A stretch of DNA of 64,000 nt. Origin: Terramyces sp. JEL0728 (Eukaryota > Chytridiomycota > Chytridiomycetes > Rhizophydiales > Terramycetaceae). Position 1 is the first letter of the stretch; every line of letters begins with the position of its first letter. The notes under the pieces were generated by a model. The model saw only the letters and a program-made list of their open reading frames with translations. It made no database searches and was not told the origin of the DNA. A program made the position numbers and the translations under genes. Of this stretch, positions 1,304 through 63,380 are shown piece by piece. The DNA lies in the NCBI GenBank assembly GCA_027603945.1, contig JADIIU010000031.1, positions 1-64,000 on the forward strand. Direction: 5' to 3'.

Positions 1304-2438
1304 ATGATATATTACGACCCTTTGCAGAGATTATCTGTCTACGTGGTTGCAATAGTCCTGCTGTTGGATTTCTACGGATTATTTGTATCAGTATGTCTAG
1401 CAATTGGTTTAATACGCGCTTATATGGCTAAAACATTCCAACCTATGCAATACAGCTCGATAATGCAATTGATCAATACCACTTTATTTGTTGTATTCTC
1501 AATCACCTCAAAGATTGATTTGCTGTATTATAATTGGGATGCTGGATCTTTGCACTATGATCATCCAGATATTAACACTACGCGTAGCAATTGGATTCAC
1601 TATTTAAACCCAACATTGTTCAATCTGGGCTGTTTGCCGATTTATATTGCTGGTCTGCTACAAATTCTTGCCTTGGATGCGATCATGAGTGAAAGGAACA
1701 CAGTGGTTAGGAGTTGGGTGCTTAAGCGGCCTTTTGCATTCTTTTCGCTAGGCATTATACCTGGTTTCATTGGTGCGATATTGTATTGGGTAGAAATGTA
1801 TGTCCGTGGTATTGATCATCCTTACTCTGTAAATGGTCAGATTATCGCACCATACAACCTTTCTTATGTCGTAATTTCTACATATTTGTTGTCGATGATC
1901 AGCACGATGTATGGATTGGTGGTTAGCCTGCGGACTTATGCGAAACTAAAGGCCAACTTTAAGATGATGATCGAAATAGCCCAAAAACGCGGTATCCCAG
2001 GGTATTTAGTGTTCCAAGTGTTGCAGATTGGATATACTATACCGATAATCGGATTTATCAAAGGGTTTGAACTACTCATATGGATCTTTCCGTCGGCGGT
2101 CAATGTCTATTATGGTAACTGTGATTAACTGTAGGTACGTATGGAATGGTCCTCGCAGCTTTGCCGCCAATCCTATCCTTCATTAATAATGGCAGTAACA
2201 AGAATATTCACTCTCTCGTTCCATTCTTTCGTAAAACCTTGGGTAAAGGAAAGCTAATTTAGGCGCTGTGTATATCAAATCATCGACCGAGAAAGCATGG
2301 AACCCATTCTATAGTGAAAAATCGAATGTAGCATCGAATATGTATACCGAATCCAAAGATGTTTCGATTAGTGTGAAACCAGAGCCAATTTCAAACTCTG
2401 CAATCGTGAACCCAGAGAAAATCGCTGTGCCTTTATAA
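1304..2438 (+). CDS. Family-A seven-TM receptor-like protein, copy A1
   Basis: Three exons (1304-2114, 2135-2242, 2263-2438) joined across two 20-nt introns give 331 residues. Seven hydrophobic segments can be counted, with short loops and a polar tail of about 60 residues. Hallmarks shared with the copies at 19.5-26 kb are MQYSS after TM1, an SKIDLLYYNW loop, YSVNGQIIAPYNLSY before TM5, GIPGYLVFQVLQIGY in TM6, and ELLIWIFPSAVNVYYG in TM7, followed by NNGSNKN. The tail has KAWNPFY, also shared. I do not recognise a named GPCR class; the topology suggests a receptor, and the paralogue number suggests a lineage-specific sensory family. Compared with copies A2 and A5 it lacks the first intron but keeps the other two at identical positions. 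Signalling function is inferred. Confidence 0.8.
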
Positions 2439-2490
2439 TTCGCTTATCATGAATAACAAGCTTGAACTTTTTTCCTTTTTGAATTTCAGA

Positions 2491-2865
2491 ATGTTGAAAG
2501 ACGCAAAAATAAAAACCAGTTCAGTTCTGAACAAGGATTCAAAGAACTATGGAAAGAAATTCCTAATAGACAACAATCCAGAAACGTGCTGGAATTCCGC
2601 ACAAGGAAATGGGCAGTTTGTGCAAATTGAGTTTGAAGAACCAAAAACAGTAACAAAACTAAAGATACAGTTTCAAGGTGGATTCTGTGGAAAAAATGTT
2701 CAAATTATAGCAAATGAAGAGTTTTTACAGAATATTTATCCTACTGATTCAAGTGATTTGCAGGTATTTGACTTGTCTTGTACTTTTCAGAAATTAAAAA
2801 TCTTGTTTGTTGATGGGACTGATTTCTATGGAAGAATAATTATTTATCATTTGGAGTTGGAATAA
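2491..2865 (+). CDS. NR2C2AP: NR2C2AP orthologue (F5/8 type C-like beta-sandwich protein)
   Basis: This single-exon protein has 124 residues. It is collinear with animal NR2C2AP (TRA16): SSVLN near the start, YGKKFLIDNNPETCWNS, GQFVQIEFEEP, KIQFQGGF, then near the end DGTDFYGRIIIYHLELE. The fold is a discoidin (F5/8 C)-like beta-sandwich. The animal protein was described as a partner of the nuclear receptor TR4, but such receptors are absent from fungi, so the ancestral role must be something else. An in-frame ATG at 2449 would add 14 residues that do not align with the family, and the sequence just before 2491 reads like a splice acceptor (TTTCAG), so 2491 is preferred. Confidence 0.85.
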   Translation: MLKDAKIKTSSVLNKDSKNYGKKFLIDNNPETCWNSAQGNGQFVQIEFEEPKTVTKLKIQFQGGFCGKNVQIIANEEFLQNIYPTDSSDLQVFDLSCTFQKLKILFVDGTDFYGRIIIYHLELE

Positions 2866-4868: not shown

Positions 4869-4933
4869 TATATGTCAATTGAAACGCGGCGCAGCTTTAT
4901 AATTTTTTTTTGTCTGAACAATTTTCATTCCAA

Positions 4934-6503
4934 ATGTCCAAACTTGAAGAATTCTTCAAATCCAACAATATCACATACGAAAAAGTCGAGATTGTCCAAA
5001 ATGACCAAGGATTCAGCGTTAGGGCAACTGAAGACATTGAAGAAGGAGCCAAAGGTAAGCTGCTTTTAACAAGTTTGTTCAATTCCAAAAGAATCCGTCT
5101 TATCCATTCGAAACACTGCCTGTGCTGATATCTTGGAAGAAAACGAATTGGGTGGGGTTCTAGGTTTGGCAATTGCTATCATGTTTGAATCGTCACTAGG
5201 CGAAAAATCACCATGGTTCAACTATTTGCAAAGTATTCCTCAATTCGAAAATGTCCCATGTTTTTGGGGTGATGAAGATGTAGCGTTTTTAGCAAACACA
5301 GATGTTGGCAGATCCTTGGCCCAGGATCTTCAATATTTGCACGATGATTACAAAGAACACCTTTTGCCTTTGATTGAAAAATATAGTGAATTTGATGGGA
5401 CATTCATGACTCTGGAACGATGGATGCATGCAACTTCTTTAGTTACTTCTAGGGCTTTCCAAGTTGATGAATTCCATGGCGAATCCCTTGTTCCTTTGGC
5501 TGATTTGTTTAACCACAAATCCGGAGCTGAACATGTACACTTTGAAGGTGTAGGCGATGTATGCCCAACTTGCGGTTCAAGTGATGGGTGCGATTGCGAA
5601 GGTGAAGAGTGGGAAGATGAAGACGAGGCACCAGAACTTGATACTATCGAAGAAGCCGAAGAAGAAATTCCTGAATTGGCAGAGATGGATGAGGCTCCTG
5701 AATTGGACGAAGAAACACCTATGGATGATGATATTCTGGAAATGGTCACTGTTAGGTCTGCAAAGAAGGGAGAAGAGTTGTTCAACACTTATGGGGACCA
5801 CTCCAACAGCTCTCTGCTTCGTTTGTACGGATTTGTGGATGATGTTTGTGAATTCTCTTGCGTCCGAATTGACAGAAAGGACGTTGTTGAACAATTCAAA
5901 CAGCTCGATGAAGAAAGTCTTGAAGATCGATTAGGATTCTGGGATCAAGTTGGAAAAGACATTGTCGACCAGCTGGGATCATTGAATGAAAACGAAGAGC
6001 AAGATGAAGATGAAGAATTTGAAGAAGAACACGAACATACTGGAGATTGCTGTGGTGAAGAACACGGCCATGACGGAGAAGGCGATATGTGCTGCGACGA
6101 TGAAAACTGCAAAGGATGCGACGAAGAAGATCCATTGATGGATGATTTCTACATTGAACAAGACGGCAAGCCTTCATTTGCCCTGGCTGCCTTTGTAAAC
6201 TTATTATCAATGTCTCAACAAGCATTTGAAACTATCGCTGTAGATTTGAACTTGGCCATCGAAGCTCTCGTCAAGATTAGAAACTCATTACAAGAAGCTC
6301 CAAAGCCTAAAAAGAAGGGGAAAGGAAAGATTGACAAATTACAAGCCGCTGTCGATTCCACCATCAAATCTTTAGTTGAAGCAAGATTAAGCGAGTATGG
6401 AACCCTGGATGCTGAAGCTGCAAATCAGAATCAAAAGTATGCGTTGATGTTGAGGAATGAAGAAATCTCCATCCTGCAAAAGTACTTGAAGAACAAGAAT
6501 TGA
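4934..6503 (+). CDS. SET-domain lysine methyltransferase (SETD6/Rkm4 class) with metal-ligand-rich insert
   Basis: Two exons (4934-5054, 5074-6503) joined over a 19-nt intron give 516 residues. The family pattern is clear: GFSVRATEDIEEGAKV at the SET start, IPKESVLS, LVPLADLFNHK (the NH motif), then ELFNTYGDHSNSSLLRLYGF with the catalytic Tyr, followed by a helical substrate-binding C-terminal domain. Relatives methylate non-histone targets such as ribosomal proteins or RelA. Unusual is the interruption between NHK and ELFNTYG by about 70 acidic residues that open with two CxxC-like clusters (CPTCG, CDCEG). A second insert near 6010-6130 is rich in His and Cys (HEHTGDCCGEEHGHDG, then MCCDDENCKGC). 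These look like metal-binding or charge-buffering loops. ATG 4910 is an alternative start adding 8 residues. Confidence 0.85.
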
Positions 6504-6552
6504 TTGGTATTTAAATAATAAAGTGTTATCATAAATTGATTTATTGAGGCAA

Positions 6553-8747
6553 TCACAATTTAGCAGGAGGTCTAATTTCATCCAACTTCTTGTACATTGC
6601 ATCAATGTATTGACGATATTTGTTTGCAGCTTCAGGTCTCTTCAACTTGAATGTAGGAGTCAAAAGCCCGTTATCTGCGCTGAATGCTTCACTCTCAACA
6701 TGGATTTGCTTCAAGAATTCAAATCCACGGAGTTTTTCTTTTTTGGCAATAGAGGTCAAATCCTTCAAAATAGCCCCCTTGAATTTGTCATTTTGACATA
6801 ATTGAACCAATAATGGATGTGGTGGAGCGCCAACTGCTGGTGGTGGTGGGGCTACGGTGGATGAAGGGAGTAGTCCGTTTTGGATTGCGTAGGAAATAGA
6901 GTATTCTTGATCTGGAACAATAATTCCAACCAATTCGGATTGCAATGAATCACCATGTACATAAACTTGCGCAACAAATCCGCTCTTCAAGTAAACATTT
7001 TCAAGCTGGATTAAAACCAATCTACCTTTTCAGGAGCAATGTATTCACCTTGAGCAAGTTTGAAAATGTTCTTTTTACGATCAACGATAAACAGACGTCC
7101 GTCCTTGTCCAATGTGCAGATATCTCCTGTCTTGAGCCATCCATCTGGGGTGATTGTGTCTGCGGTCTTTTCCTTGTCCTTCAAATATCCTTTGAATACG
7201 GTTGGTCCACGAATCCATACTTCGCCCTGATATTAAGAACAGTTACCTTCAAATCTTTGGCGTGATAGTTCATTTCAGGAACTGAAACCAACTTGATTTC
7301 ACAAGATGGTGACGGGGAACCAACGTGTCCAGGCTTCAAGTCAAACGGATGCATAAGAGTAGTGTTTGCAGTAGATTCGGTCTGGCCGTATCCTTCTACA
7401 CAGTGGCATCCAACAGCAATACGAAGAAAGTTTAGTACATTTGGGGAAATCGGAGCACTGCCAGTGACAATAGCCCTTACACGTCCACCTAATAGGTTTT
7501 TGACTTTGCTGAAAACAATTGGGTCCCAAATTGAATGAGTGAGACTTCCATCTTGTTTAAGGTAGTACAGTTTTGCTTCCATTGCTCTGTTGAACAAAGC
7601 AGCTTTCACAGCAGAGCCAGAGTTGGTAGCACCTTGAATAATCTTGTCGTGGATTCTGTTCAATAAACGTGGAACAGAAGCAAAAACAGTCGGTCTCAAC
7701 ACTCCAATATCTTCAACCAACAATGATACATCTCCTCTAAAGAAACCGGCAGACGCACCGCAGGCAATAACAGTGTTGATAAGCAATCTTTCAAAAATGT
7801 GAGCCAATGGAAGGTAAGAAACGTGAACATCGTCAGTTTCCATCTTGAACGAAGAGCAAGATCCTCTTACACCTGCAACAATGTTCATGTGAGTAAGCAT
7901 GGCACCTTTTGGGTTTCCAGTGGTTCCTAAATGTCAGATAGTAATTACCAGATGTGTAAGAAAGACAGTACAAGTCGTCCTTTGTTGGCAAACGGTGTGG
8001 GAGTGGTTTCTTTTTACCCAAATCCAAAACTTCACTCCAGGAGACGACTTTAACTCCTAATTGCGCACCCCAACTCTTGAAAATTGGAATTGGTGATGGT
8101 TGGTCTTTGAATAATGATTCCATGACAATAATAACTTTCAAGGTAGGGCATTTTGGAATAAGAGCCAGCAATTGGGCGATTTTGTCAACAGAAGACAAAA
8201 TAATAGGAACTTCAGCGTGATTGATAATGTATTCAGTAGTTTCTGCGCCAAGAGTGTCATATAGCGCAACGTTTGGAATAGAGTAGGCTCCGGCACCAAG
8301 ATCAGAAACCATCCATTCTTCACGATTAACTGAAAATACACCCAAGAACCACTGGGCAGCTTTTTCAGTTACATATTGGTCATAAAGGTGAACCAAACCA
8401 GATCCAAATTGAGTGCGTTCAATGTCAATTTGCTTATAAGTCTTGAATTGATATTCAGACCAAGTAACGACTCCATTTTTTACAATTGGATAACGTGATC
8501 CCAAGAATGGATTATTTGGGAATGATTTTACAGTATGGTTAAAGATGTCTTGTTGAGTACTTCTGCCTGGGAAATCTGTAAGCAGTTCATTCGGCGAAAT
8601 GGTTGATCTGTAAACTGCGGTTTCAAGAGGATTTGCTGGAGTTGTAACTGGGACAGCTTTCACTTTAAGGGTTCTGAATGCTTCTTCTTCGAGAATTGGC
8701 ACTCCAAGATAAGGATCAATTTGAGCTTTGACTTCTTGTTTTACCAT
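6553..8747 (-). CDS. Long-chain acyl-CoA synthetase with PTS1 tail
   Basis: Four exons (8747-7949, 7926-7247, 7226-7026, 7005-6553) with introns of 22, 20 and 20 nt give 710 residues. Removing the first intron restores the AMP-binding motif YTSGTTGNPKGAM. Also visible are GYGQTE, the hinge motif with GDI then DRKKNIFKLAQGEYIAPEK, and a C-terminal ANL domain. It activates long-chain fatty acids to acyl-CoA using ATP. The last three residues are AKL, an accepted PTS1 peroxisome signal ([SAC][KRH][LM]), so this copy probably feeds peroxisomal beta-oxidation. The first in-frame ATG is at 8747. The KPWE peroxisome-linked gene lies in the same window. Confidence 0.92.
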
Positions 8748-9005: not shown

Positions 9006-10065
9006 TTATTTACGCTTAAACAAGTAGTGCATTACAACCCAATCATTGCCTCCGTTATACCCAAATACTTCTGCTACCCCAAGGTAAAACATTCGCCATC
9101 TCTGGAACCAAACAGCTGCATCTTTACCATAGGTCTTTGTAAAAATCTCCATAATTTCAGTCTTGTTTTCATCCATTAGCCTCAACCATTCGTTTGAAGT
9201 TTGTTCTAAATAAAAACAAGAATACCATAGTTGGCTCCGGATACTGTCCATCTGTCAAGAACTTGCAAGTCTTCTTGGAACCACATAAACAAATCTTGGG
9301 ATGGCATGGTGCCTCCAGTGAAAAAGTACTTGCCCATCCATCCAGAGTTGGAAGTAAAGTCGTATGGCATTGTTCTGTGCGCGAATATATGGACAAACAT
9401 GCGTCCAGTATCAGGCTTGACCCATTTCGACACCTTTTCAAATAGCTGGTAGTAGTTTTTCATATGTTCAAACATTTCAATTGACATTACACGGTCATAA
9501 ACTTTATCGGTTTGGAATTCGTTCATATCTGCCGTGATGATATTCAAATTCTGTAATCCTAGGTGTTCCGCCTTTTCCATGATAAACTCTCTTTGAGTGG
9601 AAGAGTTGGACAAGCCAGTGATCGTGCTGTTTGGATACTTTTCAGCCAAGTACAGAGAAAGAGATCCCCACCTACATAAAATAAAGAGTACCCACATCCT
9701 AGATCCAAGATAGACAATCCATCTTCCAATTGAGCTCTTTCACAGTACAATTCAAGCATGTGTTCTTCTGCTTCATCCAAATCCTTTGCTCCCCGCTCAA
9801 ATAACGAAGAAGAATATTTCAATCGTTTGCCCAGACACAGTTGAAAGAATCTAGTAGGTAGTTCGTAATGTTGTTCATTGGCTTCTTCGGTATTCAAAGC
9901 TATTTTTGCGGTTTTGAGGTTGAGGATATAATCTCGTTTTGCAGCATCTTGCTCGGTGGATGTTGCATAAGTGAGATCCTTTGTCTTTAGTCCAAGCATG
10001 TAGCGAGCACCTAAGCGAGTAACAAAGTCAGGAACGTAGCCTGTTTCAATCAATCCCTCGAACAT
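9006..10065 (-). CDS. SAM-dependent methyltransferase, CFAS / coclaurine N-methyltransferase-like
   Basis: Three exons (10065-9692, 9671-9226, 9205-9006), two 20-nt introns, 339 residues. The N terminus ([18 protein letters not shown]) matches the CNMT-like branch of the cyclopropane fatty-acyl synthase superfamily rather than bacterial Cfa. [19 protein letters not shown] is the family motif before the Rossmann domain. Splicing restores the SAM site [19 protein letters not shown], followed by EMFEHMKNY. Members methylate amines or unsaturated acyl chains, so the substrate cannot be decided from sequence. Position 10065 is the first in-frame ATG. It lies next to the acyl-CoA synthetase in the same orientation, which is consistent with, but does not prove, a lipid role. 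Confidence 0.85.
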
Positions 10066-10578: not shown

Positions 10579-12584
10579 ATGACTCTTGAAGAAGATTCAA
10601 GGCTAAAAGAGTATCATACGATACTAAAGAAATTTGTGGATTCGGATGTAACCGAGGTAAAGCCAGTCCCCGTTGCGCTGCTAAACCGATTCAACCAACT
10701 TTCGCTTGATGCATTACTGGATTCCTCAAAAGATGTTGCAGATGAAATATATCGAAGGACCAACGATTCAAAAACCATGCTTCACTTGCCAGTAAGAATG
10801 GATTTTTCAGCAAAGGTGAAATACTTTTTAATATGAAGCGAAACCAAGTAAGACAGAAATTGGCTACATTTCAAAACGAGAGATTCAAAGAGTTTGTAGT
10901 ACAGCTAATGATGGAAATTGAAAAGAGATATCCGGGAATGAAATCCAGAATATCAATGTTACCCACAAGAACAAGTACCCGTCAATCCACATTAAGGAAA
11001 AAAGTCGCAGACAGAGAAAATGCAGCAAGTGAACCAGGACGTAGAAGAAGAGCTGAAGATAATCCCAGATCAAACTCTGTCAAACAGCAATCTGTCTACC
11101 AAGATAATTCTATGAGTGCACTTGACGCTCTAAGAAAGGAATATGAGCAAAAACTATCTCATATGGAGGCTCAAATAGCAAAGAAGGACGATGTTGTTGC
11201 CGCATTAAAAGAATCAGTAATGAAATTGGAAAAAGAACAATTTCAATCAAAAAGTTCAAACTCTCAAGTTGATCAAGAACGCCAAAGAGCCCAAAGAGAA
11301 ACCGACGCTCTAAACGCAAAGAATAGCAAGCTGCAAAGAGAATTGGACTTGTGTAGAAAAGAATTGCAGCAGGAACAAAAGATTGCTCAAGAAGCAGAAA
11401 CTCTGTGTGAAAAACTAGAAGCAAAGTACAACAAAGTATTCGCTGAAAAGGAAAACATGGCCCAAGAGATATTAAAGAGACGCGGTGATAATACAAAAAC
11501 AACCAAAGAATTCGATCTCATTTCAAAAGAACTGATGGTATGCCAAGCTGAAAAAACTGCGGCTATCCTTGCTAGAGATTCGCTCAAGGATGATGTTGCC
11601 AAGTGCAAGTCTGAAATTGACAATTTGAAATCGCAATTGAAAAAAGTAGAAGTAGATAGGCTCAACACTATGGTAATTATCATTAATTGCAGCCTAAAAT
11701 GACTAAAACTCTAGATTCAAGAGTAGGTTTGCTTTCGCCTAATTCAGCTACGTCTGGTGATACCGCAATTAATTATTCTGTTAATTCGTCAGTATTTGAG
11801 CAACACTATGCACAGTTCAAGACCTATGCAAATGATTTGATTTCTTCTTCTGGTAAAGGCAAGAAACACATGACAGTTCAATTGGCAAAACCCTTGGTAA
11901 TGCTCTGTCAAAAAATCACGGTAGAATGTGAAAAGAAGGAGGACGATCCCAAAGTGCATGACGATGACAAGGACAATATCGTTGATTGCAAAAACAAACT
12001 GGCTGCGTGCTTGGCTAAATTTACTGCAGCTATTAAATTACACGCCAGTGAAGGTACAGTAGATGCTGCCAAAGTATTGGAAATTGAAATCATTGCTCTA
12101 CAAAAATGTGTATCTGAATTGGTTGACATTATGCGCATCATCAATTCTGATGGCAAGAAGACTGATCAGGATTTAGAAATGACTCTACCTGAATTAATCG
12201 TAATTAATCATTAATCATCAGGATCACACCAAGCAGAAGATCGATTCAATCGCCGGGAACCGAAAAGGTTTGCTTGATCTCATAAAACAAAACTCCACAA
12301 ATGGCAAACAAATGTCTGACCTTGTTAACGATATCTACATTTGTGTCGATGATATTATCTACGAAACGCAAGGAACTCTCGATACCACCAACGACTTGAA
12401 AAAATCCGCTATAGAAGTTGCAGATCGTCAACTCGATGTAATGACTGATATTAGAACTGAATTATATCGATTGACGGATAAAATACTACAAAATCCTAAA
12501 GATCGCGACATTAAGCAACAAATTTCTGACTCGGTATCAGATGCCCTTCAATATTCAAAAGATCTCTTGGGCATATTAAAGTAA
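10579..12584 (+). CDS. Spa2-like polarisome scaffold (Spa2 homology domain protein)
   Basis: Four exons (10579-10815, 10839-11672, 11693-12199, 12222-12584) with introns of 23, 20 and 22 nt give 646 residues. The N terminus holds the two Spa2 homology (SHD/GIT) repeats: one around LLNRFNQLSLDALLDSSKDV, and the second, restored by splicing, around RQKLATFQNERFKEFV. A Lys/Arg-rich linker and a long coiled coil follow (about residues 190-360, from MSALDALRKEYEQKL on), then a helical GIT/Spa2 C-terminal domain ending in KDLLGILK. Spa2 proteins organise polarity complexes (formins, MAPK modules) at sites of hyphal or bud growth; in a zoosporic fungus germ-tube or rhizoid growth is the likely site. 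Fungal membership is supported by this gene. Confidence 0.8.
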
Positions 12585-12607: not shown

Positions 12608-13522
12608 TCATAGTTTGGATAAACTTAGTTTGTTAAATTCATCTTTGTGTTCCTTGAAGAAATCTTCCAGGGAAATTGCCTTTCTGCCAGTTAACTGTAC
12701 CATGTCATTTGAAACAGAAGTAAAGAATCCTTTAGCAATTAAGCTGTACAGCTCCAGGTCCAAAAACTTTGCCCAGCTTGGTCCTGCAGCGGTTAGTGGA
12801 GACTTGTTAACAAATTTAACTGGTCTTTCCAATCCCTCTGAAGCTTTTCCAGCAATTGCTACCCCAGTCAACAATTCCGGTCCAGTTAATCGATACACTT
12901 TTCCTGAATGCTTTTTGATATCTGCTAATATAGCACCAGCTGCAGCAGCAACGTCTCGGGCATGTACTGGCGCAAACCCACCAGTGCTAATTGGAATTTG
13001 AATAGTCGCTAATGGTTTGTGGAATTGCGCCTTCATATCCAAAAAGTTTTGTTGCAATGGAGCGCATCTCATGAATGTATATGGAATACCAGTAGCTTCG
13101 ATGTCTACATTAGTAATTATTACATTGCTCAATGTAGCGGAATTGTGCAGCCAACATTCCCGAGCGGGTATGACAGTCCAATAACGATACCAAGCAAATG
13201 AATTTGATGTTTCTTTCCACAGCTACCGCAATCAATCTTTTAGCTTGCAATGCTCGTTCTTCTGATTTTGAAGGAATCAAGAATAAATAATCAATTTCAT
13301 TTTCAAATGCCTTGTTTACAGTAGTAACTGCATCGTAATCCAGATTCAAAACTGAATGGCATTTTTGTGCTAATGGTGGTGGGATGGTTTCGGTTGGGAA
13401 AACACCAGCGATAATTTTAAAGTTGGACTAGATTAGATTTGCTGTACTTGCGATAGTGTTTCCAACAGTGCTTGTCCGATATTCCCCGAAGCTCCTGTGA
13501 TTAGTACAGTTGGAACTGACAT
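12608..13522 (-). CDS. NmrA-like NAD(P)-binding Rossmann protein
   Basis: Three exons (13522-13448, 13427-13124, 13104-12608), introns 20 and 19 nt, 291 residues. The N terminus reads MSVPTVLITGASGNIG, a dinucleotide-binding GxxGxxG loop. After the second intron is removed the family motif IEATGIPYTFMRCAPLQQNF appears, as in NmrA and YwnB-type atypical SDRs, followed by a VHARDVAAAA segment. The Tyr-x-x-x-Lys catalytic pair of classical SDRs is not evident, so it is probably a redox sensor or a reductase of unknown substrate. Its stop lies 23 bp from that of the convergent Spa2 gene. Confidence 0.8.
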
Positions 13523-26239: not shown

Positions 26240-26461
26240 TTACCTGATGCAATAACTAAATCTATTTACCAAGCTACTCGTTGCAGCTTCACCGCTGCCA
26301 GTGTCATAATAGATCCAATTTAAGCAAGTGAAGCACAAAACCACCATTCTTCCGACAGCAACTGCGAATCCAATTCCAGCTGTTCGGTACTTTGCAGGGA
26401 ATATTTCAGAGCACATTGGGCAAGTGTCCCAAGCCATAGCATAAGCAAGTTGATAAAACAT
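26240..26461 (-). pseudogene. MFS transporter fragment
   Basis: An open stretch reads WDTCPMCSEIFPAKYRTAGI then GFAVAVGRM, the conserved signature between TM10 and TM11 of MFS sugar/organic-ion transporters (SEIFP...R..G.G...A.GR). Only about 70 codons exist. No upstream transporter exons are present, because the ABCC gene's stop is 8 bp away, and the frame ends in non-homologous codons. It is best read as a relic of a deleted transporter gene. Confidence 0.5.
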
Positions 26462-48015: not shown

Positions 48016-48062
48016 ATCAAGCTCGCCAATTCAGATTAAATGACACTTTTACAATGGGTTTA

Positions 48063-52900: not shown

Positions 52901-55900
52901 GGACTTGACTTTGCTCAATAGATTACTCAGGTTGATTGTTGACCATAATATTGCAGACTATATGACTTCAAAGAACAATGTTGCGCTGACTTACAAGGAT
53001 ATGAACCACGTCAATGCTTATGGTTTGATAAGAGGGCTCCAATTTGCTTCCTTCTTGTTCCAGTATTATGGATTGGTCCTGGATTTACTCATTCTGGGAA
53101 TAAACAGAGCAAGCGAAATGGCTGGTCCGCCTTCCATACCAAATGACTTTTTGCAATACCGTGATGTCGCTACAGAAACAAAGCATCCAATTAGGCTATA
53201 CACCCGTTATGTTGACAAAGTATACATGTTGCTGCGGTTCGACGCTGATGATTCTCGTGACTTGATCCAAAGATACTTGACTGAACACCCTGATCCCAAC
53301 AATGAAAATATCGTTGGGTATAATAACAAAAAGTGCTGGCCAAGAGATTGTAGAATGCGCCTGATGAAGCATGATGTTAACTTGGGCAGGGCAGTCTTTT
53401 GGGATATCAAAAACCGACTTCCTAGATCATTAACAACCATTGAATGGGACAATACTTATGTCTCGGTATACTCTAGAGATAATCCAAACTTGCTTTTTAG
53501 TATGTGTGGATTTGAAGTCAGAATTTTACCCAAAGTTCGATCTACCATGGAAGAATTCACCCTTAATGAAGGCGTATGGAATTTGATCAACGAGGAAACA
53601 AAGGAAAGAACAGCCCAGGCATTCTTGCGCGTGGATGAAGAGTGCGTTACAAGGTTCAGCGACAGAGTGCGACAAATTTTGATGTCTTCTGGCAGTACCA
53701 CCTTCACCAAGATTATCAACAAGTGGAATACAGCCTTAATGGGGCTAATGACATACTTCCGTGAAGCTGTTATTCACACCAGAGAATTGTTGGATTTACT
53801 GGTCAAGTCTGAGAATAAGATTCAAACCAGAATTAAAATTGGGTTGAACTCAAAGATGCCTTCCAGATTCCCTCCAGTGGTGTTTTACACTCCTAAAGAA
53901 TTGGGCGGTCTGGGTATGCTGTCTATGGGCCACGTATTGATTCCTCAGTCTGATTTGCGTTGGTCCAAGCAAACTGATACCGGCATCACCCATTTCAGAT
54001 CTGGGATGTCGCACGAAGAAGATCAGACTATACCAAACTTGTACAGATACATTCAACCTTGGGAGTCTGAATTTGTTGATTCGCAACGTGTTTGGGCTGA
54101 ATATGCGTTAAAGCGCCAAGAAGCTAATGCGCAAAACAGAAGATTGACTCTTGAAGATTTAGAAGACAGTTGGGACCGCGGCATACCCAGAATTAATACT
54201 CTCTTCCAAAAAGATAGACATACTTTGGCTTATGACAAAGGATGGAGAGTTAGAACTGATTTCAAACAATACCAATTGCTCAAGAACAATCCGTTCTGGT
54301 GGACACATCAGAGACACGACGGTAAGCTGTGGAATTTGAACAACTATCGTGTTGATATGATTCAAGCACTGGGCGGTGTTGAAGGTATTTTGGAACACAC
54401 GCTGTTCAAAGGAACTTATTTCCCAACTTGGGAAGGTCTTTTCTGGGAGAAGGCATCTGGTTTCGAAGAATCGATGAAGTAATTATATAGTTAACCCTAG
54501 ATTCAAAAAGTTGACAAACGCTCAAAGATCTGGTTTGAACCAGATTCCAAACAGGAGATTTGTTTTATGGTGGTCTCCAACGATAAACAGGGCTAACGTG
54601 TATGTTGGTTTCCAAGTTCAATTGGATTTGACTGGAATCTTTATGCATGGTAAAATTCCAACCTTGAAGATTTCGCTAATTCAAATTTTCAGAGCTCACT
54701 TGTGGCAGAAGTGTCATGAATCGGTCGTTATGGATTTGTAAGTTTTTTGTGATTGTAGGTGTCAAGTATTTGATCAAGAATTAGAAGCTCTTGAAATTGA
54801 GACGGTACAAAAAGAAACGATTCATCCAAGAAAGTCTTACAAGATGAATAGCAGTTGTGCTGATATCCTTTTGTTTGCTGCGTATAAATGGAACGTGTGC
54901 AAGCCATCGCTCTTGAATGACCAAAAGGATGCATTTGACGGAGCTACTACGCAAAAGTATTGGCTTGATGTTCAAGTTCGTTGGGGAGATTTTGATTCCC
55001 ATGATATTGAAAGATACACACGAGCAAAATTCTTGGACTATACGACTGATAATATGTCCATCTATCCTTCTCCAACTGGGCTGATGGTCGGTGTGGATAT
55101 TGGATACAACTTGCATAGGTAATTTTATGGTAATTGTAGTGCTTATGGTAACTGGTTCCCTGGTATGAAACCTCTTGTGCAACAAGCAATGGCAAAGATT
55201 ATGAAATCAAACCCTGCTCTGTATGTTTTGCGTGAGCGTATCCGAAAGGGCTTGCAATTGTACTCTTCTGAACCTACCGAGCCATATCTTAATTCTGCAA
55301 ATTACGGTGAACTGTTCTCCAATCAAATTATTTGGTTTGTCGATGATACAAACGTCTATCGTGTCACTATTCACAAAACCTATGAAGGTAACTTGACTAC
55401 AAAGCCCATTAATGGAGCAATCTTTATCTTCAATCCAAGAACGGGCCAATTGTTCTTGAAAATCATTCACACCTCTGTCTGGGCCGGTCAAAAGAGGTTG
55501 GGTCAGTTGGCAAAATGGAAAACTGCCGAGGAAGTTGCAGCTCTGATCAGATCTCTACCTATTGAAGAACAACCGAAACAAATTATTGTCACAAGAAAGG
55601 GCATGTTGGATCCACTTGAAGTTCATTTGCTCGATTTCCCAAATATTGTCATCAAAGGTTCCGAATTACAACTTCCATTTGCAGCTTGTCTCAAAATTGA
55701 AAAGTTTGCCGATATGATTCAAAAGGCAACAGAACCAGAAATGGTGCTGTTCAATTTGTTTGACGACTGGTTGAAAAGTGTTTCTGGCTACACTGCATTT
55801 TCCAGGTTGGTTTTGATTTTACGTGCGATTCATGTAAATAACGACAAGACTAAGGTCATTCTTAGACCAGACAAAACTATTATCACCGAAAAGCACCATA

Positions 55901-57054
55901 TCTGGCCGACAATGACGGATGAAGAATGGATTAAAGTCGAAGTTGCACTCAAAGATTTGATTCTCTCCGACTATGGAAAGAAGAACAGCGTAAATGTTTC
56001 ATCCTTGACCAGCTCTGAAATCAGAGATATTATTCTTGGTATGGAGATTGCCGCACCTTCTGCGGAACGTCAAAAAGTTATTGAAATTGAAAGACAGCAA
56101 GCGGAGCAATCTCAATTGACTGCTGTTACTACGATGACTCAAAACAAAGCCGGGGACGATATGATTGTAACCACCACTTCCAACTATGAAACCCAAACTT
56201 TCTCCTCCAAGACAGAATGGAGAATCAGGGCCATTGCCGCTACCAATTTGCACTTGCGCACAAATCATATTTTTGTCAATTCTGATGACATCAAAGAGAA
56301 TGGCTTCACGTACATTTTGCCAAAGAACATCTTGAAACGATTCATTACAATTTCTGACTTGAGAACGCAAGTTGCAGGCTATTTATATGGTGTGACGCCT
56401 CCAGATGCTCCGCAAGTAAAGGAAATCAGAGCAATTGTGTTGGTGCCACAATGGGGAACCCATCAGCAAGTCACTCTTCCTACCATGCTGCCTAACCATG
56501 AACTCTTGAACGAATATGAGCCTTTAGGTTGGATCCACACTCAGCCGAATGAACTGCCACAGCTCAGTCCATTCGACGTTACAATGCATGCAAAAACTAT
56601 GGCTGACAACAAAGGAGCTTGGGATGGGGATCAAACTATTGTTTTAACTGCATCCTTCACACCAGGCTCTTGCTCGTTGACTGCAAATAAAATCACGCCG
56701 TTAGGGTTTGAATGGGGAATAAGCAACAAAGATACCAGCGCAAATCCACAAGGTTACAGCCCTGCCCATTATGAAAAGGTGCAAATGATTCTCACTGATA
56801 AATTCCTTGGGTACTTTATGGTTCCAGAAGGAGAAGGGATTTGGAATTACAACTTCATGGGGGCAAAGCACCATCCGGACATGAAATACGCTCTTACAGT
56901 TGATCAGCCAAAGGTAATTTTTGTCTTAACTTAGGAATTTTATCACGAAGTTCACCGTCCCAACCATTTCTTGAACTTTAGTAGTTTGGAAGAAACCGGG
57001 TTTGGAACTGCTGGAGTGGGTGTTGATGTTGACAGGGATGATCAATTTGCATAA
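49941..57054 (+). CDS. PRPF8: PRPF8 (Prp8), catalytic-core spliceosome protein
   Basis: Seven exons (49941-50077, 50098-50233, 50253-54478, 54501-54737, 54759-55118, 55140-56913, 56935-57054), introns 20, 19, 22, 21, 21 and 21 nt, 2329 residues (human 2335). Conservation is very high throughout: [57 protein letters not shown], then the RT-like, linker and endonuclease-like regions, the RNase H-like domain, and the C-terminal Jab1/MPN domain with its tail ([22 protein letters not shown] is shortened here). Prp8 cradles U5/U6 and both splice sites. In this genome it must accept introns so short that donor, branch point and acceptor nearly touch, so its loops near the branch helix and 3' site are worth comparing. 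The extreme N-terminal Pro-rich part of other Prp8s is absent. Confidence 0.97.
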
Positions 57055-57143
57055 TACATAGTATTTTTTAGCTTAGTCAATGTGACGCAACAGTGATAAA
57101 AATTTTGAGAGCTTTCATCTTTTTTCAATTTTGAAATTTCCAA

Positions 57144-57643
57144 ATGTTGGTTAAAAGAATCAGTTCAAATTTCCTAAAATGCCGTCAGTTCTCAGCTATC
57201 AGCTTCCTTCGCTCTGCAGCACCATCTCCAGCTGGAAAATCAAATGTTAAATTGGATGAAACTATTCCAGGTTTTAGAGAGCCAGGAGCTATTGCAACAG
57301 ATTACGAAATTGCAACTGGTGTTGAACGTTATGAATTGCTCAAGGGTTTAAAAGGAGAAGATCCGTGGGAGGACTTGCATCCAATTGAAATCACCGCATT
57401 AGGAACTACCAAAAAACCAATTGAAGTTAAAGGAACTGATGTAGAGCGTTATATTGGATGCACTGGTATATATATTTAATACTAGGGTTCCCAGCCGATT
57501 CCCACCCACCTATTTTCTTGACTGTTAGAGATTATGGCGGCAAACACTTTGACCGTTGCCCAGATTGCGGAAATGTCTTCAAGGTAGTTGATAATTAATT
57601 CTAGTATACTCAAGAGCATGATCACCACGACGCTCATCATTAA
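57144..57643 (+). CDS. COX4: Cytochrome c oxidase subunit (yeast Cox4 / animal COX5B)
   Basis: Three exons (57144-57465, 57486-57583, 57605-57643), introns 20 and 21 nt, 152 residues. A mitochondrial presequence (MLVKRISSNFLKCRQFSAIS) is followed by PGFREPGAIATDYEIATGVE and DPWEDLHPIE. The zinc fold is then restored by splicing: YIGCTGFPADSHPP supplies Cys and His, and RCPDCGNVF two more Cys. The protein ends in a His/Asp-rich tail (HDHHDAHH). It is a nuclear-encoded complex IV subunit of the matrix face. Its presence implies an aerobic respiratory chain. Confidence 0.95.
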
Positions 57644-57675
57644 ATAAAAGGAAATGCTTTTTTATTCGTCGTTAC

Positions 57676-58926
57676 TCATTTAGACGGAAAGCTTTCTAAC
57701 CAAGATTCGATAGTATCTTTAACTACCAAATGTCTGGCTAGATCGTTGTGCCCGGCATAGGCTACGCGAAGAAACCACACTGGGTTTTCATCCGAGTTCA
57801 GAGACCACAGCTCCCCTTCATGATCCAAATGGGTAATCGATAGTCCCTGTACGTCTTTATGGTCAAATTTTGTTTTGTGTGGCCTGTTTCGTATTTGCCA
57901 GTAGCCGTCATCTAGCACTTTGTTTCCTGTTCTCCCACTAATAGCCTCCAAGAAATTGGCTTCTGCCTGCCAAGATTTGATTTCAAAATCTTTTAATCCA
58001 TGCATGATGAGAATTGGCGTGGTTATGGATGACATTTTAAGATGAGATGACCACTTATCCACTATTTTTGACTTTATCCATTTCTCTAGCTGGGGAAACC
58101 CATGGAATGGCAGTAACACCGGCACCATTGGATATCCAATAGCTGCATCTGCAATACTAGCATATCCTACGTTAGTAAGTAGTTCCCTGAGAGTAATATT
58201 AGTCCAGCACAGGGCGGAGTACCTAATTGTGTCTGTTTTAAATCCAATGTATAGGCTAAATCCGTTGCTATTCCAGATCCTACTATTATATCCAAGAACC
58301 TAGAGAATGGCCAACAAGTACAATCTTCCTAGGATCGACTCCTTGGTCAACAATCCAATCGTAAGCCGACATTGCATCAATTCTTACTGTTTTTTCTGTT
58401 GGAATCGCAAATGAAGAATCTGCAAACCCTCTGTAATCGATTGCAATCACATGAGAGTTGATTGATAGCGAAGTCATCATTTTATAAAAGTCGGTACGAT
58501 GAAATGTTGCTCTATTCCCAGCGTTTCCGTGGAAATACTTTTTTAAATCAAGTCTACCAGAAACACAATATCTGCCTGATCCAGCTCCAAGTTTGAATCC
58601 TGTTCTTGCTGATACTGCTGGGGATTCGGTTTTGGGACAAATCTGTGCGGTGAAATATGCCAAGCTCCTAATAGCAGATTATCTTTTGTTTTGATTTTGA
58701 ATGATTTTACGCTCCCACCTGTGCTTTAGTCATCTGTTACTTCGAAATCCAAATTCTTCGGCCCTATTGAAATCAACGAAAAACGGAAATTTGGCGAAAT
58801 TGAGATACATGGCCCAGTGCTGGAAAGGGAATGGGATTAGTATTAATATTGCTAATATGAGCTATGTAAGTATTAAAATACAATGTAGAATATGAGGCCA
58901 AAAAATACAGCTGACAAGATTGACAT
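57676..58926 (-). CDS. ABHD12: ABHD12-like lysophospholipid lipase
   Basis: Six exons (58926-58882, 58861-58741, 58718-58558, 58537-58300, 58279-58187, 58166-57676) give 382 residues (human 398). After a membrane anchor (SAVFFGLIFYILILAIL) it reads YLNFAKFPFFVDFNRAEEFG, as in ABHD12, then LLLGAWHISP and LYFHGNAGNRATF. The nucleophile elbow is GHSLGSG, the acid is in MHGLKDFEI and the His in AYAGHNDL. ABHD12 enzymes hydrolyse lysophosphatidylserine and related lipids at ER membranes. Introns 1-4 are 20-22 nt. The fifth (58186-58167) must be removed to keep AGLILLS-GYASIADAA in frame, yet it begins GG instead of GT; unspliced it gives a stop. Confidence 0.88.
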
Positions 58927-59044
58927 TTTCGCAAACAAAAATTTCCATATTTCCAGATTCTTGGAGGGATACTGGCTAGTGTAGGAAGCGGAATAAGAAT
59001 ACGCACAGCAATAGTGAATTATTTTTTATTTTATAAAAAGCAAG

Positions 59045-59718
59045 CTACAGATTCCTGGCTTTCAAGTCATCCACTTGTTGGGAGAAAATCTTCATCAACT
59101 CAGAAGGTTTCGTTTTCCCCGGGAATTGCTTTGCAAGATATACATCGAATACGTCTGAAAAAATTGCATTCGCGACCTGAGTTTCTTTAAACAATGTTCC
59201 TTCATCGGGACTAATATTAGCAAAGATTACTTTAAAAGATTTACAAGGGTAAATAGGAATCTAAACTGCCCTGCCTTTCGAACCGCTAAATCAGGGAAAA
59301 CAAAAAAACAGCCAAGTGCTCCAGCAGCATCGAACAAAAACCTCCCTTCCGAAATGAGGTTTCCAGCTAAATGCGCTTGCTCTTGCTTTACTGGGCTGTT
59401 GCTTTCGTCTATAGACCATAGGGTAGCGCATAGCACCCAATTAAATTCCCTGTTGGGTCTATATTAGTAATATTTCACTTGATATATTTTGTTGGATCTT
59501 CTGGATCCTGTGCCCATAATTGAATAACTGGAGGCTAATATTAAAGAGTTCTTTACTGGGTCGACTGATCTGAAATCCTTGGTCCCATTCCCACAACTTC
59601 TGGCTCGATTTGGTTGTTGAACCATTACCAGCTTGTAGGGCATATTCTGTTGACTCTCTTCATTTATAATTGTTTCTGCGCTAGGGTTAACTTGGAAATA
59701 CTCTTCTCTTGAGAACAT
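59045..59718 (-). CDS. Velvet-domain regulator
   Basis: Four exons (59718-59557, 59534-59479, 59458-59231, 59210-59045), introns 22, 20 and 20 nt, 203 residues. The chain is one velvet domain: YKLVMVQQPNRARSCGNGTK, VDPPPVIQLW, FFVFPDLAVRKAGQFRFLF, then FDVYLAKQFPGKTKPSELM with a final basic helix. It has an NF-kB-like fold and binds DNA as homo- or heterodimers. In moulds it links sporulation and secondary metabolism; in a zoosporic fungus it would be an early member, possibly of the VosA/VelB type. No extra domain or long tail is present. Velvet proteins are a fungal hallmark, so this gene bears on the identity of the organism. Confidence 0.9.
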
Positions 59719-60157: not shown

Positions 60158-60883
60158 ATGGCGACAACTACTATCACAACCACAGGCAGCATTTCTGCAA
60201 TAGGAACTCAAAAAAAGACTTATCCATACTTTACGCCAGAGCAAGTACTTGCGCATGACTCGCCAGACGACTGTTGGTTATCATGGTTAGGATGCGTGTA
60301 TAATCTTACAGAATTTTGCCAGAAACACGCGGGAGACCCTCAATTAACCCCGATATTGGCCAATGCAGGACAGGATATTTCCCACTGGTTTGATCCCGAA
60401 ACTGGAAATGTATTTTTGTTCTTATTCTAGCTCAAAACGCAAATCAACCTCCTTACAGATTGTAAAACCTATGCAAAACCATATGGCAGGCTAATAAATG
60501 TATCGCCTCACTTGCCTCAACATAATTGGGATGTAGATGAAGGCACCAAGCCATGGTGGATTGACCAATCCAATTGCATGGGTTACTTGTCAAAGAAAAC
60601 GAGAAAAATCAGAATCCAAAATACATTAACAAAGGACGAGCATATCTTGGAGGTATGTACCGAGGATTCTTTGTCGGCCATTCAGGAGCGTTATTCGTTG
60701 ATCAATGCCCATGCCAAGGGATACATGTGGAAGAGACTTAATGTTCTATTGGATATGAATTTGACATTAGAAGAAAATGGAATTCCCGATGAGGACGAAC
60801 TATTCAATGATTTAGGAATCAATAATGACCAATGGCTGCCAGTCATTCACTTGTATTTCAGCGACGACCTAACTGTTGCTTGA
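60158..60883 (+). CDS. CYB5D1: CYB5D1 (cytochrome b5 domain-containing, cilium-associated)
   Basis: Two exons (60158-60409, 60431-60883) with a 21-nt intron give 234 residues (human 228). After a Thr-rich start, the heme-type domain reads YFTPEQVLAHDSPDDCWLSW, with ILANAGQDISHWFDPET. The second half is the diagnostic part: LPQHNWD, KPWWIDQSN, YLSKKTRKIRIQNTLT, LDMNLTLEENGIPDEDELF and HLYFSDDLT. CYB5D1 locates to cilia and influences beating in algae and vertebrates, and its distribution follows flagellated eukaryotes. Its presence argues for a flagellated zoospore stage. Confidence 0.93.
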
Positions 60884-60956
60884 GAAATTATTGTAATAAA
60901 GGGAAATTGAGCTTGAAGCTTATTTCTTTGTGCTGTATAAAAAAGTTGCCATTGAA

Positions 60957-63380
60957 ATGGGTAATCCAAATCTCGTTGCCGTTCTTCAGTCATGCTCAAA
61001 CGTTTCGTTTCAAAGAAATCAGGAGATGGATGGAGTACTCGCACTAGTGACTGACAAGGTCAATATCACATTAGCATGGATTGCCTTGGAGTCGCTAAAT
61101 AGGGAACAACTCAATTTATTTCACATTCCTAAGCAAACAGGACTTGTAGACTTGAAACAAATTGAATCATTCATTACTCCAGTTGATTCAATTGTCAGTG
61201 TTTCTTTGGAACCAGAGCTGTCTGTATATAATAACAAAGCTTGTTGTTTGGTCGCAATTACTGTGTTCTTCACAACGGAAGCAGGAGAGGATTCGCAGTG
61301 GCCTGCATTAGTATTTAATCCAACTTCGCTGGGTATTCAGTCAGTTTCGGATGTCCATTCAATGCTAAGAAGGTGGTTGCGTCCATTCAAAAGGGATTTA
61401 ATGTACCTGGACGACGGAAAGAATCGATATTATCTAACAGATAAACTGCAAAATATTGTCACGGACAAATGGCCAGCAGGAATACCTCAGCCTCCAGAAG
61501 ATTCCAGTGTATATAAGATCGGGGCATTTGGGTTTGGCGTTGTATCTTCTTTACTAGGGTCTCCTACCGCACATGTATCCATATGCTAATTGTAGAAATT
61601 GGAAGATGTTGGGTGGGATGTGTTGGAGAGATTTGCCCAGGTTACCATTTTTGCAAAAGACAAAACAAGTAACTTTAATTAATACAGCCCAAGCATTAGA
61701 ACACCCTCTCGCCAGGCCGCTACTTCCCCTTATTCCTGACAAGATTAGATCTAATTTCTTGACTTCAGCCGAAGCAGAAGCGCTCATTGAAGACTATGAT
61801 TCTGCCCACAGGTATCTGGCCCAATTTGCAGATGATATCCAAAGAAAAATTGGAATTAAAAAGGAAATCGAAGTGGTAAGACAGGAACCGGATACCACAT
61901 GCGACTTTGAAAATTTGAAAGGGCACTATGTTTCCCACTTTACTGGAACCCCTGTCACCACAGAAAAATGGTCATCTTGGCTGGATGAACAGGGAAAGCT
62001 TACGATATCTTCATACAAGGTTGCTTGTCATGTTTTTTGCGGAGTAATATGATCTTATGATAGGGTATTGAACCTGCTCTGCGACCAAGCGCGTGGAAAT
62101 ACATTTTGGGGGCCATATTGGTATTTTATATTAATTCAAGTGGACAGAAGACGAAAAAACAAATGATAACCTCTTGCAGCAAAAGAAAGACACATATTAT
62201 CAGATGAAAAATTCGTGGATGGTAATTTTACAAGAAGCTGGTAACCGCTCTCCCACAAAAATCAAAGAGCCACACAATGGTCCGGTCGGCGACGAAGATG
62301 AAAATTCGGATGTAATATCAAAGCTGACGGAACGCAAATACAGAATTGGTAATTTTTCTTAACAAAGATAAGGATGTAATCAGAACTGACCAGACAATCG
62401 CGTTCTTTGCCGTGGGTGAAATAAACCCAAAGTCCACTTTGCACCAGACCATTGAAACTCAGCCAAATTTAGTAACGCTTCGAAATATTTTGATGACGTA
62501 CACCATCTTGAACTTTGAGCTGGGTAATATTAAGTAACTCTCAGGTTATGTGCAAGGTATGAGTGACTTGGCAGCTCCGATTTTAGAAATTGTTAAAGAT
62601 GAAGCCGAGGCATTTTGGTGTTACGTCGGCTTGATGGAAAAGATGAAGCAGAATTTCCAAAGAGACCAAAGTGGAATGCAAAGCCAATTGCGCAAGCTGG
62701 AGTTGCTCCTCAAGGTGCTTGACCCTCCACTCTACAACCATTTTGGTACTAATATTTAATGTAGAAAACTGTGACTCTGTTAATATGTTTTGCTGCTTTA
62801 GATGGTTGCTAATAGCTTTCAAGAGGGAATTCTATTTTGAAGACATAAAGACTCTTTGGGAAATCATTTGGATGTCTCCTTTAACCGCACATTTCAATCT
62901 CTTTGTAGCTGTTGCTGTTTTAAATCAGCACCGTAAAGCTCTTTTGGAAACCCAGGCATTCGATGAGGTTTTAAAGGTACTCGTACATCTAAAAAGTATA
63001 TAAACAATCTATCGCAAAACATTAATGTTCCGGAAGCAGTTCAGAGGGCTGAAGTGCTCTACTACGTCCTAAGAGATAAACTCGCCACTAGCGGTCCTGA
63101 AGGTCTTGGCGAAAGCGTAGGGAAAACTGTCAGCTCAATTATTACTGATTCCGATCTCAACGTTATCTCGGGGCGAGAAAACAAAATCCTTGTCCTTGAT
63201 CAAACAGAATACAAACAAGAGTCAAATTTAACATCGGAAGAGTGGTATGAATTAGTCCAGGTGTTTGAAATTGATCACGCAATCGCCAACAAAGAGCGAA
63301 TGAGCACAAAGGTGGAAGTTGAAGATGGAGCTGATCTTCAAATGTCAGGGTTGGAATCTGTAACAAATATCGGTCAATAA
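60957..63380 (+). CDS. Gyp7/TBC1D15-like Rab GTPase-activating protein
   Basis: Nine exons (60957-61574, 61596-61668, 61688-62043, 62064-62120, 62141-62348, 62368-62523, 62545-62745, 62765-62976, 62997-63380) with introns of 21, 19, 20, 20, 19, 21, 19 and 20 nt give 754 residues (yeast Gyp7 746). The N-terminal DUF3548/Rab-binding region comes first (ITLAWIALESLNREQLNLF to about residue 230). The TBC domain then starts at FCGGIEPALRPSAWKYILG. The catalytic arginine finger is in RIDKDVIRTD and the glutamine finger in GYVQGMSDL; both are intact. The targets would be Ypt7/Rab7-type GTPases of late endosome and vacuole. This gene has the most introns in the window, including exons of 57 and 73 nt. 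Confidence 0.93.

Follow-up and report, generated by a model that had tools for sequence, protein, structure and literature searches.

Tiny introns of about 20 nucleotides, single and in abutting arrays, in genes of the chytrid Terramyces sp. JEL0728

Introduction

The stretch of DNA discussed here, referred to as the window, comprises 64,000 nucleotides (C31:1-64000) of the genome of Terramyces sp. JEL0728 (15,016,339 bases in 231 contigs). The host belongs to the Rhizophydiales, i.e., it is a fungus as presumed in the initial annotation of this DNA. We take it to be a free-living saprobe; JEL numbers belong, as far as the available source goes, to a strain collection. The genes of the window, among them PRP8 and those for cactin, Tsr1 and a tyrosyl-tRNA synthetase, are interrupted by segments of 18-24 nt with GT..AG ends. 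Very probably these are true U2-type spliceosomal introns and the sole intron class detected in this organism. The initial annotation had counted about 86 such introns of 18-23 nt in about 28 genes. The phenomenon stands with adjusted figures, i.e., 81 accepted introns of 18-24 nt. Sites which hold several tiny introns end to end had been overlooked.

Genes and introns of the window

Two types of search were employed. The motif-free search used dicodon scores trained on long open frames and was decoded over 264 kb, i.e., the window and 20 stretches of 10 kb. Jumps were allowed at a flat cost between any chosen pair of dinucleotides, with no preference for length or motif. The motif-aware gene model admits introns of 17-25 nt only, hence this range is not itself evidence; its array-aware version sees intact units only. 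In the window independent gene modelling placed 83 units at 82 intron sites, distributed over 35 gene models. By hand, 49132-49153 was added, 23147-23164 was taken out, and two doubtful 22-nt calls on the minus strand were set aside (26256..26277, score 7.1, which may join two genes, and 58300..58321, score 6.7). This left the 81 accepted introns. The call at 23147-23164 was our own and was rejected: kept in, it reads IGFSIYSIIGKHELI, by eye like VGFVIFSILSKQELI of a paralogue. An earlier motif-free run over the window picked out 16 gaps with lengths of 17-24 nt; 13 of them coincide with accepted introns, and the other three start at 1178, 2231 and 24298. In the following, calls rest on the gene model unless other evidence is named, and 'both searches' denotes introns which the motif-free run chose as well.

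A comparison with homologues is offered by PRP8 (49941-57054, plus strand), which has six introns: 50078..50097 (20 nt), 50234..50252 (19 nt), 54479..54500 (22 nt), and three of 21 nt with an in-frame stop, 54738..54758, 55119..55139 and 56914..56934, the last two found in both searches. After removal 40 of 42 site-by-homologue comparisons are gap-free (seven homologues, 25 columns), i.e., seven of seven homologues at introns 2, 4, 5 and 6, and six of seven at introns 1 and 3. At site 1 the exception is the GenBank model of Boothiomyces sp. JEL0866 (P0001) with seven extra residues, RLSFTNC, before RK; this fits a retained 21-nt intron ending in ACNAAYTGYAG (back-translated by hand). At site 3 it is a Batrachochytrium model (P0006) with a gap beside the site. 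In the CCDC25/NFACT-R gene (18235-18957, minus) five homologues run without a gap across 18385..18404 (20 nt) and 18459..18476 (18 nt). Further, when spliced versions are compared with Pfam, single stretches cross the intron sites in the AMP-binding, CMAS, NmrA, Tsr1, cactin, tyrosyl-tRNA synthetase, Aa_trans, COX5B, forkhead, TBC and velvet proteins.

Three conserved motifs are restored by intron removal, as previously claimed. The AMP-binding gene (6553-8747, minus) is interrupted at 7006..7025 and 7227..7246 (20 nt each) and, within YTSGTTGNPKG, at 7927..7948 (22 nt), removal of which gives SYTSGTTGNPKGAM. The CMAS methyltransferase gene (9006-10065, minus) has 20-nt introns at 9206..9225 and, in LDLGCGWG, at 9672..9691. 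The forkhead gene (37269-38359, plus) has a 20-nt intron at GWKNSVRHN (37539..37558, both searches).

The remaining introns are spread over the whole window. On its left side, a seven-helix (7TM)-like paralogue gene (1304-2438, plus) carries two of 20 nt, 2115..2134 (both searches) and 2243..2262, and a SET-domain gene (4934-6503, plus) one of 19 nt (5055..5073). Gene 10579-12584 (plus) has 10816..10838 (23 nt, score 7.5), 11673..11692 (20 nt) and 12200..12221 (22 nt); the NmrA-like gene (12608-13522, minus) has 13105..13123 (19 nt) and 13428..13447 (20 nt); a membrane protein gene (15018-15952, plus) has 15654..15673 (20 nt). Two more 7TM-like paralogues lie on the minus strand, 19539-20329 with 19679..19698 (20 nt), 19807..19825 (19 nt) and 20069..20088 (20 nt), and 23800-24852 with three of 20 nt, 23877..23896, 24005..24024 (both searches) and 24268..24287, where the motif-free run chose the overlapping 24279-24298. 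Gene 26469-30525 (minus; an ABC transporter by eye) contains 26637..26656 (20 nt) and 28711..28733 (23 nt), each from both searches, and 29726..29746 (21 nt).

Further along, a P2X-receptor-like gene (31365-32620, plus) has 31749..31769 (21 nt) and 32284..32303 (20 nt; both searches and a match to the consensus pattern described below). Tsr1 (32685-34953, minus) has 33053..33072 (20 nt), 33696..33714 (19 nt) and 34258..34276 (19 nt, score 6.8). The three introns of the cactin gene (35272-36452, plus) were found in both searches: 35603..35624 (22 nt), 36178..36196 (19 nt) and 36386..36406 (21 nt). Three minus-strand genes follow: 38390-39205 with 38408..38426 (19 nt) and 38523..38542 (20 nt); 39298-41079 (KH-type by eye) with 40138..40158 and 40882..40902 (21 nt each); and 41139-43587 (KH-type by eye) with 42687..42707 (21 nt, both searches), 42939..42958 and 43181..43200 (20 nt each). 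Gene 43876-45261 (plus) has 44890..44908 (19 nt, both searches) and 45166..45185 (20 nt). An alpha/beta hydrolase gene (45355-46609, minus) is interrupted five times, by 19 nt at 45487..45505, 46249..46267 and 46518..46536 and by 20 nt at 45675..45694 and 45923..45942. The tyrosyl-tRNA synthetase gene (46791-48107, plus) has 47106..47125 (20 nt), 47252..47270 (19 nt), 47472..47491 and 47838..47857 (20 nt each); a weaker 23-nt call at the 3' end of the model, 48012..48034, lies beyond the Pfam match. The Aa_trans transporter gene (48063-49418, minus) has two single 19-nt introns, 48249..48267 and 48611..48629. On the right side of PRP8, COX5B (57144-57643, plus) has 57466..57485 (20 nt) and 57584..57604 (21 nt), and the velvet-factor gene (59045-59718, minus) has 59211..59230 (20 nt), 59286..59309 (24 nt), 59459..59478 (20 nt), 59535..59556 (22 nt) and 59681..59701 (21 nt). 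Gene 60158-60883 (plus) has 60410..60430 (21 nt). The TBC (RabGAP) gene (61026-63380, plus) contains eight: 61575..61595 (21 nt), 61669..61687 (19 nt), 62044..62063 and 62121..62140 (20 nt each), 62349..62367 (19 nt), 62524..62544 (21 nt), 62746..62764 (19 nt) and the weak 62977..62996 (20 nt, score 6.4).

Intron length

A peak at 19-22 nt is already visible in a crude count of motif spacing in the window. The comparison which bears on length is the motif-free search of the 264-kb sample. Its main run admitted 12-150 nt and used seven control dinucleotide pairs built from the same letters. Gaps of 19-22 nt numbered 85 for GT..AG vs 6-12 for the controls. GT..AG was the sole pair clear of the controls at these lengths; neither GC..AG nor AT..AC had a peak there. 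In a second run (10-28 nt, 11 other pairs) gaps of exactly 20 nt numbered 86 for GT..AG vs 4-17. In the other bins of the main run, those from 23 to 150 nt included, GT..AG never topped the highest control. A third run (30-400 nt, three controls) gave a GT..AG total of 320 vs 294-328, i.e., GT..AG equals the controls.

The motif-aware model produced 143 gene models in the same sample with 360 intron sites; at least one intron is present in 114 genes, and the average is 2.5 per gene. The phases are distributed 157/125/78. The 357 single introns measure 17 nt (2), 18 nt (7), 19 nt (82), 20 nt (163), 21 nt (63), 22 nt (25), 23 nt (8), 24 nt (6) and 25 nt (1). In 76 the length is divisible by three, and 52 of these 76 contain an in-frame stop, a share which is not used as a test because the model favours stop-containing introns.

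The initial annotation had suggested a check of lengths across the whole genome. The pattern GTAATTN5TTAATNNTAG (GTAATTNNNNNTTAATNNTAG) matches 51 times genome-wide vs 0 for the reversed pattern. With a variable gap of 1-31 (total 17-47 nt) the consensus pattern has 188 matches vs 30 reversed, and among 100 matches listed 91 are 20-23 nt long. With a gap of 32-62 (48-78 nt) a peak is absent. In the 264-kb sample and with one consensus pattern genome-wide, there is one narrow length class and a clear longer class is not seen. The earlier claim that the tiny introns are the only class agrees with this, as a clear excess of longer GT..AG gaps is absent up to 400 nt in the sample. The related statement that long introns are unneeded in the window holds with a qualification: two sites require removal of 40 and 43 nt, and both consist of two complete tiny introns.

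Splice sites and branch-like motif

The donors of the 357 introns are mostly GTAA (176), followed by GTAC (57), GTAT (54) and GTAG (32). The acceptors are TAG (231), CAG (80), AAG (42) and GAG (4). At position +5, T is present in 48% and G in only 16%. The column counts of introns found without any motif, in the earlier motif-free run, display a T-T-A-A-T-like block near the 3' end. Refinement from a TTAAT seed in 85 introns gave TTAAT (30), TTAAC (14) and CTAAT (13) as the commonest pentamers; in 70 of the 85 the distance from the end of the pentamer to the exon is 4-5 nt. This bears out the TTAAT/CTAAC-like element which had been placed close to the acceptor. TTAAT differs from CTAAC by a T in place of each C, and by eye it can for this reason pair with U2 via two G-U wobbles around a bulged A.

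An NTRAY is present in 296 of 357 introns; its branch-like A is at nucleotide 14 or 15 in 251 of these 296, and the tail is 5-6 nt long in 257. These figures describe the spacing and do not test it, because the motif-aware model rewards exactly this spacing. In 61 of the 357 introns there is no NTRAY, and NTRAY is also found in 13% of exonic 20-mers.

Tandem intron arrays

At some sites two to six complete introns of 19-23 nt follow each other with no exon in between, 40-130 nt in total. Each unit has its own donor, branch-like motif and acceptor, and the acceptor adjoins the next donor. The window contains two such arrays. In the 264-kb sample introns with a score >8 abut (offset 0) 12 times vs a mean of 1.8 for offsets 1-30; a single site with alternative donors may enter these counts twice. 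The array-aware model chose three arrays in the sample, L004, L014 and the window pair 18805-18844; the window pair 49111-49153 was added by hand as a fourth. Genome-wide, a tandem pattern TAAYNNYAGGTAN{7,12}TAAYN{2,3}AG has 46 matches vs 3 for its reversal, several of which share one array or sit in duplicated loci. A first, strict tandem pattern had given 3 matches vs 0; its match outside C30 (L029) was not chosen by the array model.

In the CCDC25/NFACT-R gene 18825..18844 and 18805..18824 (minus, 20 nt each) abut, and the frame is open only when both units are removed. Four of five homologues are gap-free at this site. The fifth is the GenBank model of Terramyces sp. JEL0728 itself (P0122), to which the window protein is identical at 206 of 206 aligned residues; this model lacks eight conserved residues and is a mis-joined annotation. 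In the Aa_trans gene 49132..49153 (22 nt, identified by hand) and 49111..49131 (21 nt, gene model) abut on the minus strand. With both removed a single Pfam Aa_trans match covers residues 23-412; the frame also stays open when the second unit alone is kept.

Elsewhere in the genome the arrays comprise 20+23 nt (L032), 21+20+23+22+19 nt (L039 = L026, PI synthase, C8:174282-174386), 21+22+22+21+23+21 nt (L040), 22+22+19+20 nt (L045), 21+20+20+20 nt (L047) and again 21+20+20+20 nt (L048/L049 = L024, proteasome alpha). L025, in a karyopherin-like gene on the minus strand of C26, has 20+20+21 nt with GC..AG as third unit. When proteasome alpha-6 (PSMA6) and USP7 are aligned with solved structures, no gap appears at the junction of the array site. 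In PI synthase FGAVLDMVTDR and the residues onward read straight across the five-intron site in six of six homologues listed; for the 175-residue part of this protein there was no PDB match. None of its 16 matches at E <= 1e-60 was named Terramyces or Boothiomyces, three having no source name (67-69% identity), so the PI synthase annotation may be broken. A frame test of seven arrays left the frame open in all seven when no unit was kept, and not open in six of seven when all units were kept. In four of seven one kept unit leaves an open frame, for some unit.

Within four arrays the similarity between units does not exceed that between random introns (mean 0.559, 37 pairs, vs 0.583), and the 19 units keep GT, branch-like motif, AG and a length of 19-23 nt. 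In L024 three 20-nt units are identical. The lack of relationship among the compared units, bar these three, suggests, and does not prove, that units are spliced singly.

Spliceosome components

The U2 snRNA is canonical (140 bits) and contains the GUAGUA branch-recognition stretch. Prp8 is encoded in the window: residues 6-2311 of 2,329 match human Prp8 with 4,573 bits, and the protein shares 98% identity with its counterpart in Boothiomyces sp. JEL0866 and 81% with those of several animals. Together with the GT..AG ends and the TTAAT/CTAAT branch-like element, the canonical U2 and the near-full-length Prp8 argue for the earlier assignment of the segments as spliceosomal introns. Matches for U6 of 27 bits were rejected; they belong to a coding-looking gene, present in two copies, with introns of 21 and 20 nt. 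The cactin gene (35272-36452), whose product we take to be a factor of the step-two spliceosome, lies 13 kb from PRP8.

Duplicate loci

Four pairs of near-identical loci were aligned, with 7,831 genic positions, 535 in called introns and 7,296 exonic. Inside gene models there are three indels of one base each, and all three are in called introns; the exon positions have none. By our arithmetic the chance of this is about 3 in 10,000. Outside gene models there are 14 indels. Further, the same intron pattern repeats about 7-46 kb apart on one contig in C3, C4, C26, C36 and C86. The 3-kb surroundings of the repeats on C3, C4 and C26 are 97.5-99.4% identical, and these repeats are either a segmental duplication or an assembly artefact.

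Discussion

What can be read directly from the DNA is a length restriction, a motif, restored conserved frames, indels confined to introns and complete introns which abut. From this we infer that the segments are spliced from RNA. The introns would have a near-fixed geometry: a GTAA-like donor, a degenerate YTAAY (mostly TTAAT) with its branch-like A at nucleotide 14-15, a tail of 5-6 nt and mostly YAG. If G-U wobbles are allowed, the YTAAY can form base pairs with the branch-recognition stretch of the canonical U2. The A thus marked would be the branch A, the lariat loop would measure 14-15 nt, and room would be lacking for a polypyrimidine tract after the branch. We also suppose an upper size limit of the machinery, at about 24 nt. 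Under such a limit the arrays of two to six introns would have to lose their units singly, in a much shortened variant of recursive splicing whose exons have zero length. In its extended form the proposal says that intron length is quantised, i.e., limited on both sides near 20 nt, so that introns grow only through whole units joined head to tail, and an array of up to six would lose its units one after another. For this extension we consider the balance to be even.

Several results weigh against these views. Neither U6, sought by a covariance model, two patterns and BLAST, nor U1, sought by a covariance model, was found, and an empty result of this kind is not proof of absence. The motif-free search recovers about a quarter of the modelled introns and 13 of 81 in the window. 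Substitutions between duplicate loci (10 of 535 intron positions vs 75 of 7,296 exon positions) indicate that introns are not clearly faster. With respect to arrays, the excess of abutting introns is weak at a score >6 (25 vs 6-20, 264 kb). The gene model needs the array in seven of 20 fetched loci (six distinct) and not in 13. In one of the 13, L042 with its duplicate L043 (karyopherin-like by eye), a 42-nt pair has no stop, hence the frame alone cannot decide. Arrays did not turn up in the motif-free search: of the 278 gaps of 34-150 nt which it chose, none could be divided into units (by chance 6 of 60,000), i.e., this search does not show arrays.

Could the arrays leave in a single step, as ordinary introns of 40-130 nt whose internal sites were left over when units were duplicated or inserted, the tiny introns being real all the same? 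This is a possibility which we regard with some reserve. The mature mRNA would be identical either way, array sites are rare, and the three identical units of L024 show that unit duplication happens. Decayed arrays would be invisible to the gene model, which weakens the argument from unit conservation. Yet if longer introns could be spliced one would expect an undivided class, and decay among the array units; there is no clear excess of undivided gaps of 23-400 nt, and the unrelated units of the other four arrays keep their geometry. The same identical units, and the AG|GT which abutting units recreate, would suit an introner, a mobile intron-like element whose copies enter at AG|GT junctions; the units being unrelated within the other four arrays compared, we consider this quite improbable.

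A minority of longer ordinary introns may have escaped, be it in untranslated regions (UTRs), in weakly coding genes, or as too few to rise above background. The searches cover the coding parts of genes with a clear coding signal. The motif-free search bridges many gaps, with a background of about two per length. In three of the 13 bins of the 30-400 nt run GT..AG is 1-4 above all three controls (90-119 nt, 26 vs <=25; 240-269 nt, 18 vs 16; 270-299 nt, 21 vs 17), and genome-wide the 48-78 nt pattern has 33 matches vs 15 reversed. Nevertheless we judge such a minority unlikely, given the control-like totals and bins reported above and that GT..AG lies within or under the control range in the remaining bins of the 30-400 nt run. 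By eye, at least six of the 33 long-pattern matches have an entire tiny intron inside them, and two pairs of matches come from duplicate loci; this accounts for part of that excess. Lastly, the segments might not be introns at all and represent assembly frameshifts, pseudogenes or translational bypass. We give this hardly any credence in view of the GT/branch/AG anatomy, the one length peak, the presence in essential genes such as PRP8 and the indels confined to the segments.

According to the available text of the pertinent papers, uniformly tiny introns are otherwise on record from relic nuclei, a parasite lineage and ciliates (PMC4035089, PMC6461891, PMC10245619, PMC9505925). The nucleomorphs of the chlorarachniophytes Bigelowiella natans and Lotharella oceanica have numerous, mostly GT-AG introns, most of 18-23 nt with 19 nt commonest (PMC4035089, PMC6461891), and in number, ends and size those of Terramyces resemble them. 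Nucleomorphs, however, are relic nuclei below 1 Mb (in B. natans U1 and U5 are shrunken), whereas this is a 15-Mb fungal nuclear genome with 20 nt commonest; the available text of the two papers does not mention abutting introns. In Stentor coeruleus introns are described as 15-16 nt, GU-AG, with the branch A at nucleotide 10-11, a 5-nt tail and no strong branch consensus (PMC9505925). The single narrow length class, GU-AG and the tail of about 5 nt are shared, and the putative loop of 14-15 nt with its 5-6 nt tail would resemble the 10-11 nt loop and 5-nt tail of Stentor. The length of 19-22 nt, the branch-like A at 14-15 and the clear TTAAT consensus differ. Mikrocytos and Paramikrocytos have uniform, sequence-conserved introns of 16-17 nt (PMC10245619). 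In that account these organisms are parasitic, their spliceosome is reduced and their introns are few (M. mackini has 224 annotated), in contrast to the 2.5 or so per modelled gene here.

The arrays recall ratchet points and dual-specific AG|GT sites, at which an acceptor is directly followed by a donor (PMC8605326, PMC10809524). Those cases, as far as the accessible text goes, concern long introns or coding repeats (polyubiquitin), whereas here complete introns of about 20 nt stand up to six in a row within segments of 40-130 nt. Fungal stwintrons likewise involve several splicing reactions at one intron position (PMC9024468), but are described as nested, with a splice element of one intron interrupted by another intron, and here complete introns abut. 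In the open-licence literature a search for abutting introns led to ratchet points, stwintrons and polyubiquitin. In the same literature, outside which the genome's own paper may fall, no title or abstract was found that deals with tiny introns of Terramyces, of Boothiomyces or of any other chytrid. The available parts of a study of 644 fungal genomes (PMC8476143) and of a Rhizophydium genome paper (PMC13391722) do not name them.

A chytrid from a strain collection, with a 15-Mb genome and a Prp8 as close to animal proteins as this one, would open the physics of the minimal intron to experiment. It may be a test case for the smallest possible intron and for the question whether an intron can be too long. 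The abutting arrays would provide naturally occurring substrates on which stepwise splicing and an upper limit of intron size could be tested. There is also a practical side, as the eight conserved residues lost from the GenBank CCDC25 model at the tandem pair illustrate.

Further features of the window

Between 1304 and 26461 lies a cluster of paralogous genes for seven-helix-like membrane proteins, recognised by eye; one protein tested had no Pfam match at E <= 1e-4. The P2X-receptor-like gene (31365-32620) matches PF00864 with 58.9 bits and is of note in a chytrid. At the edge of the window positions 1-54 carry a partial tRNA gene on the minus strand.

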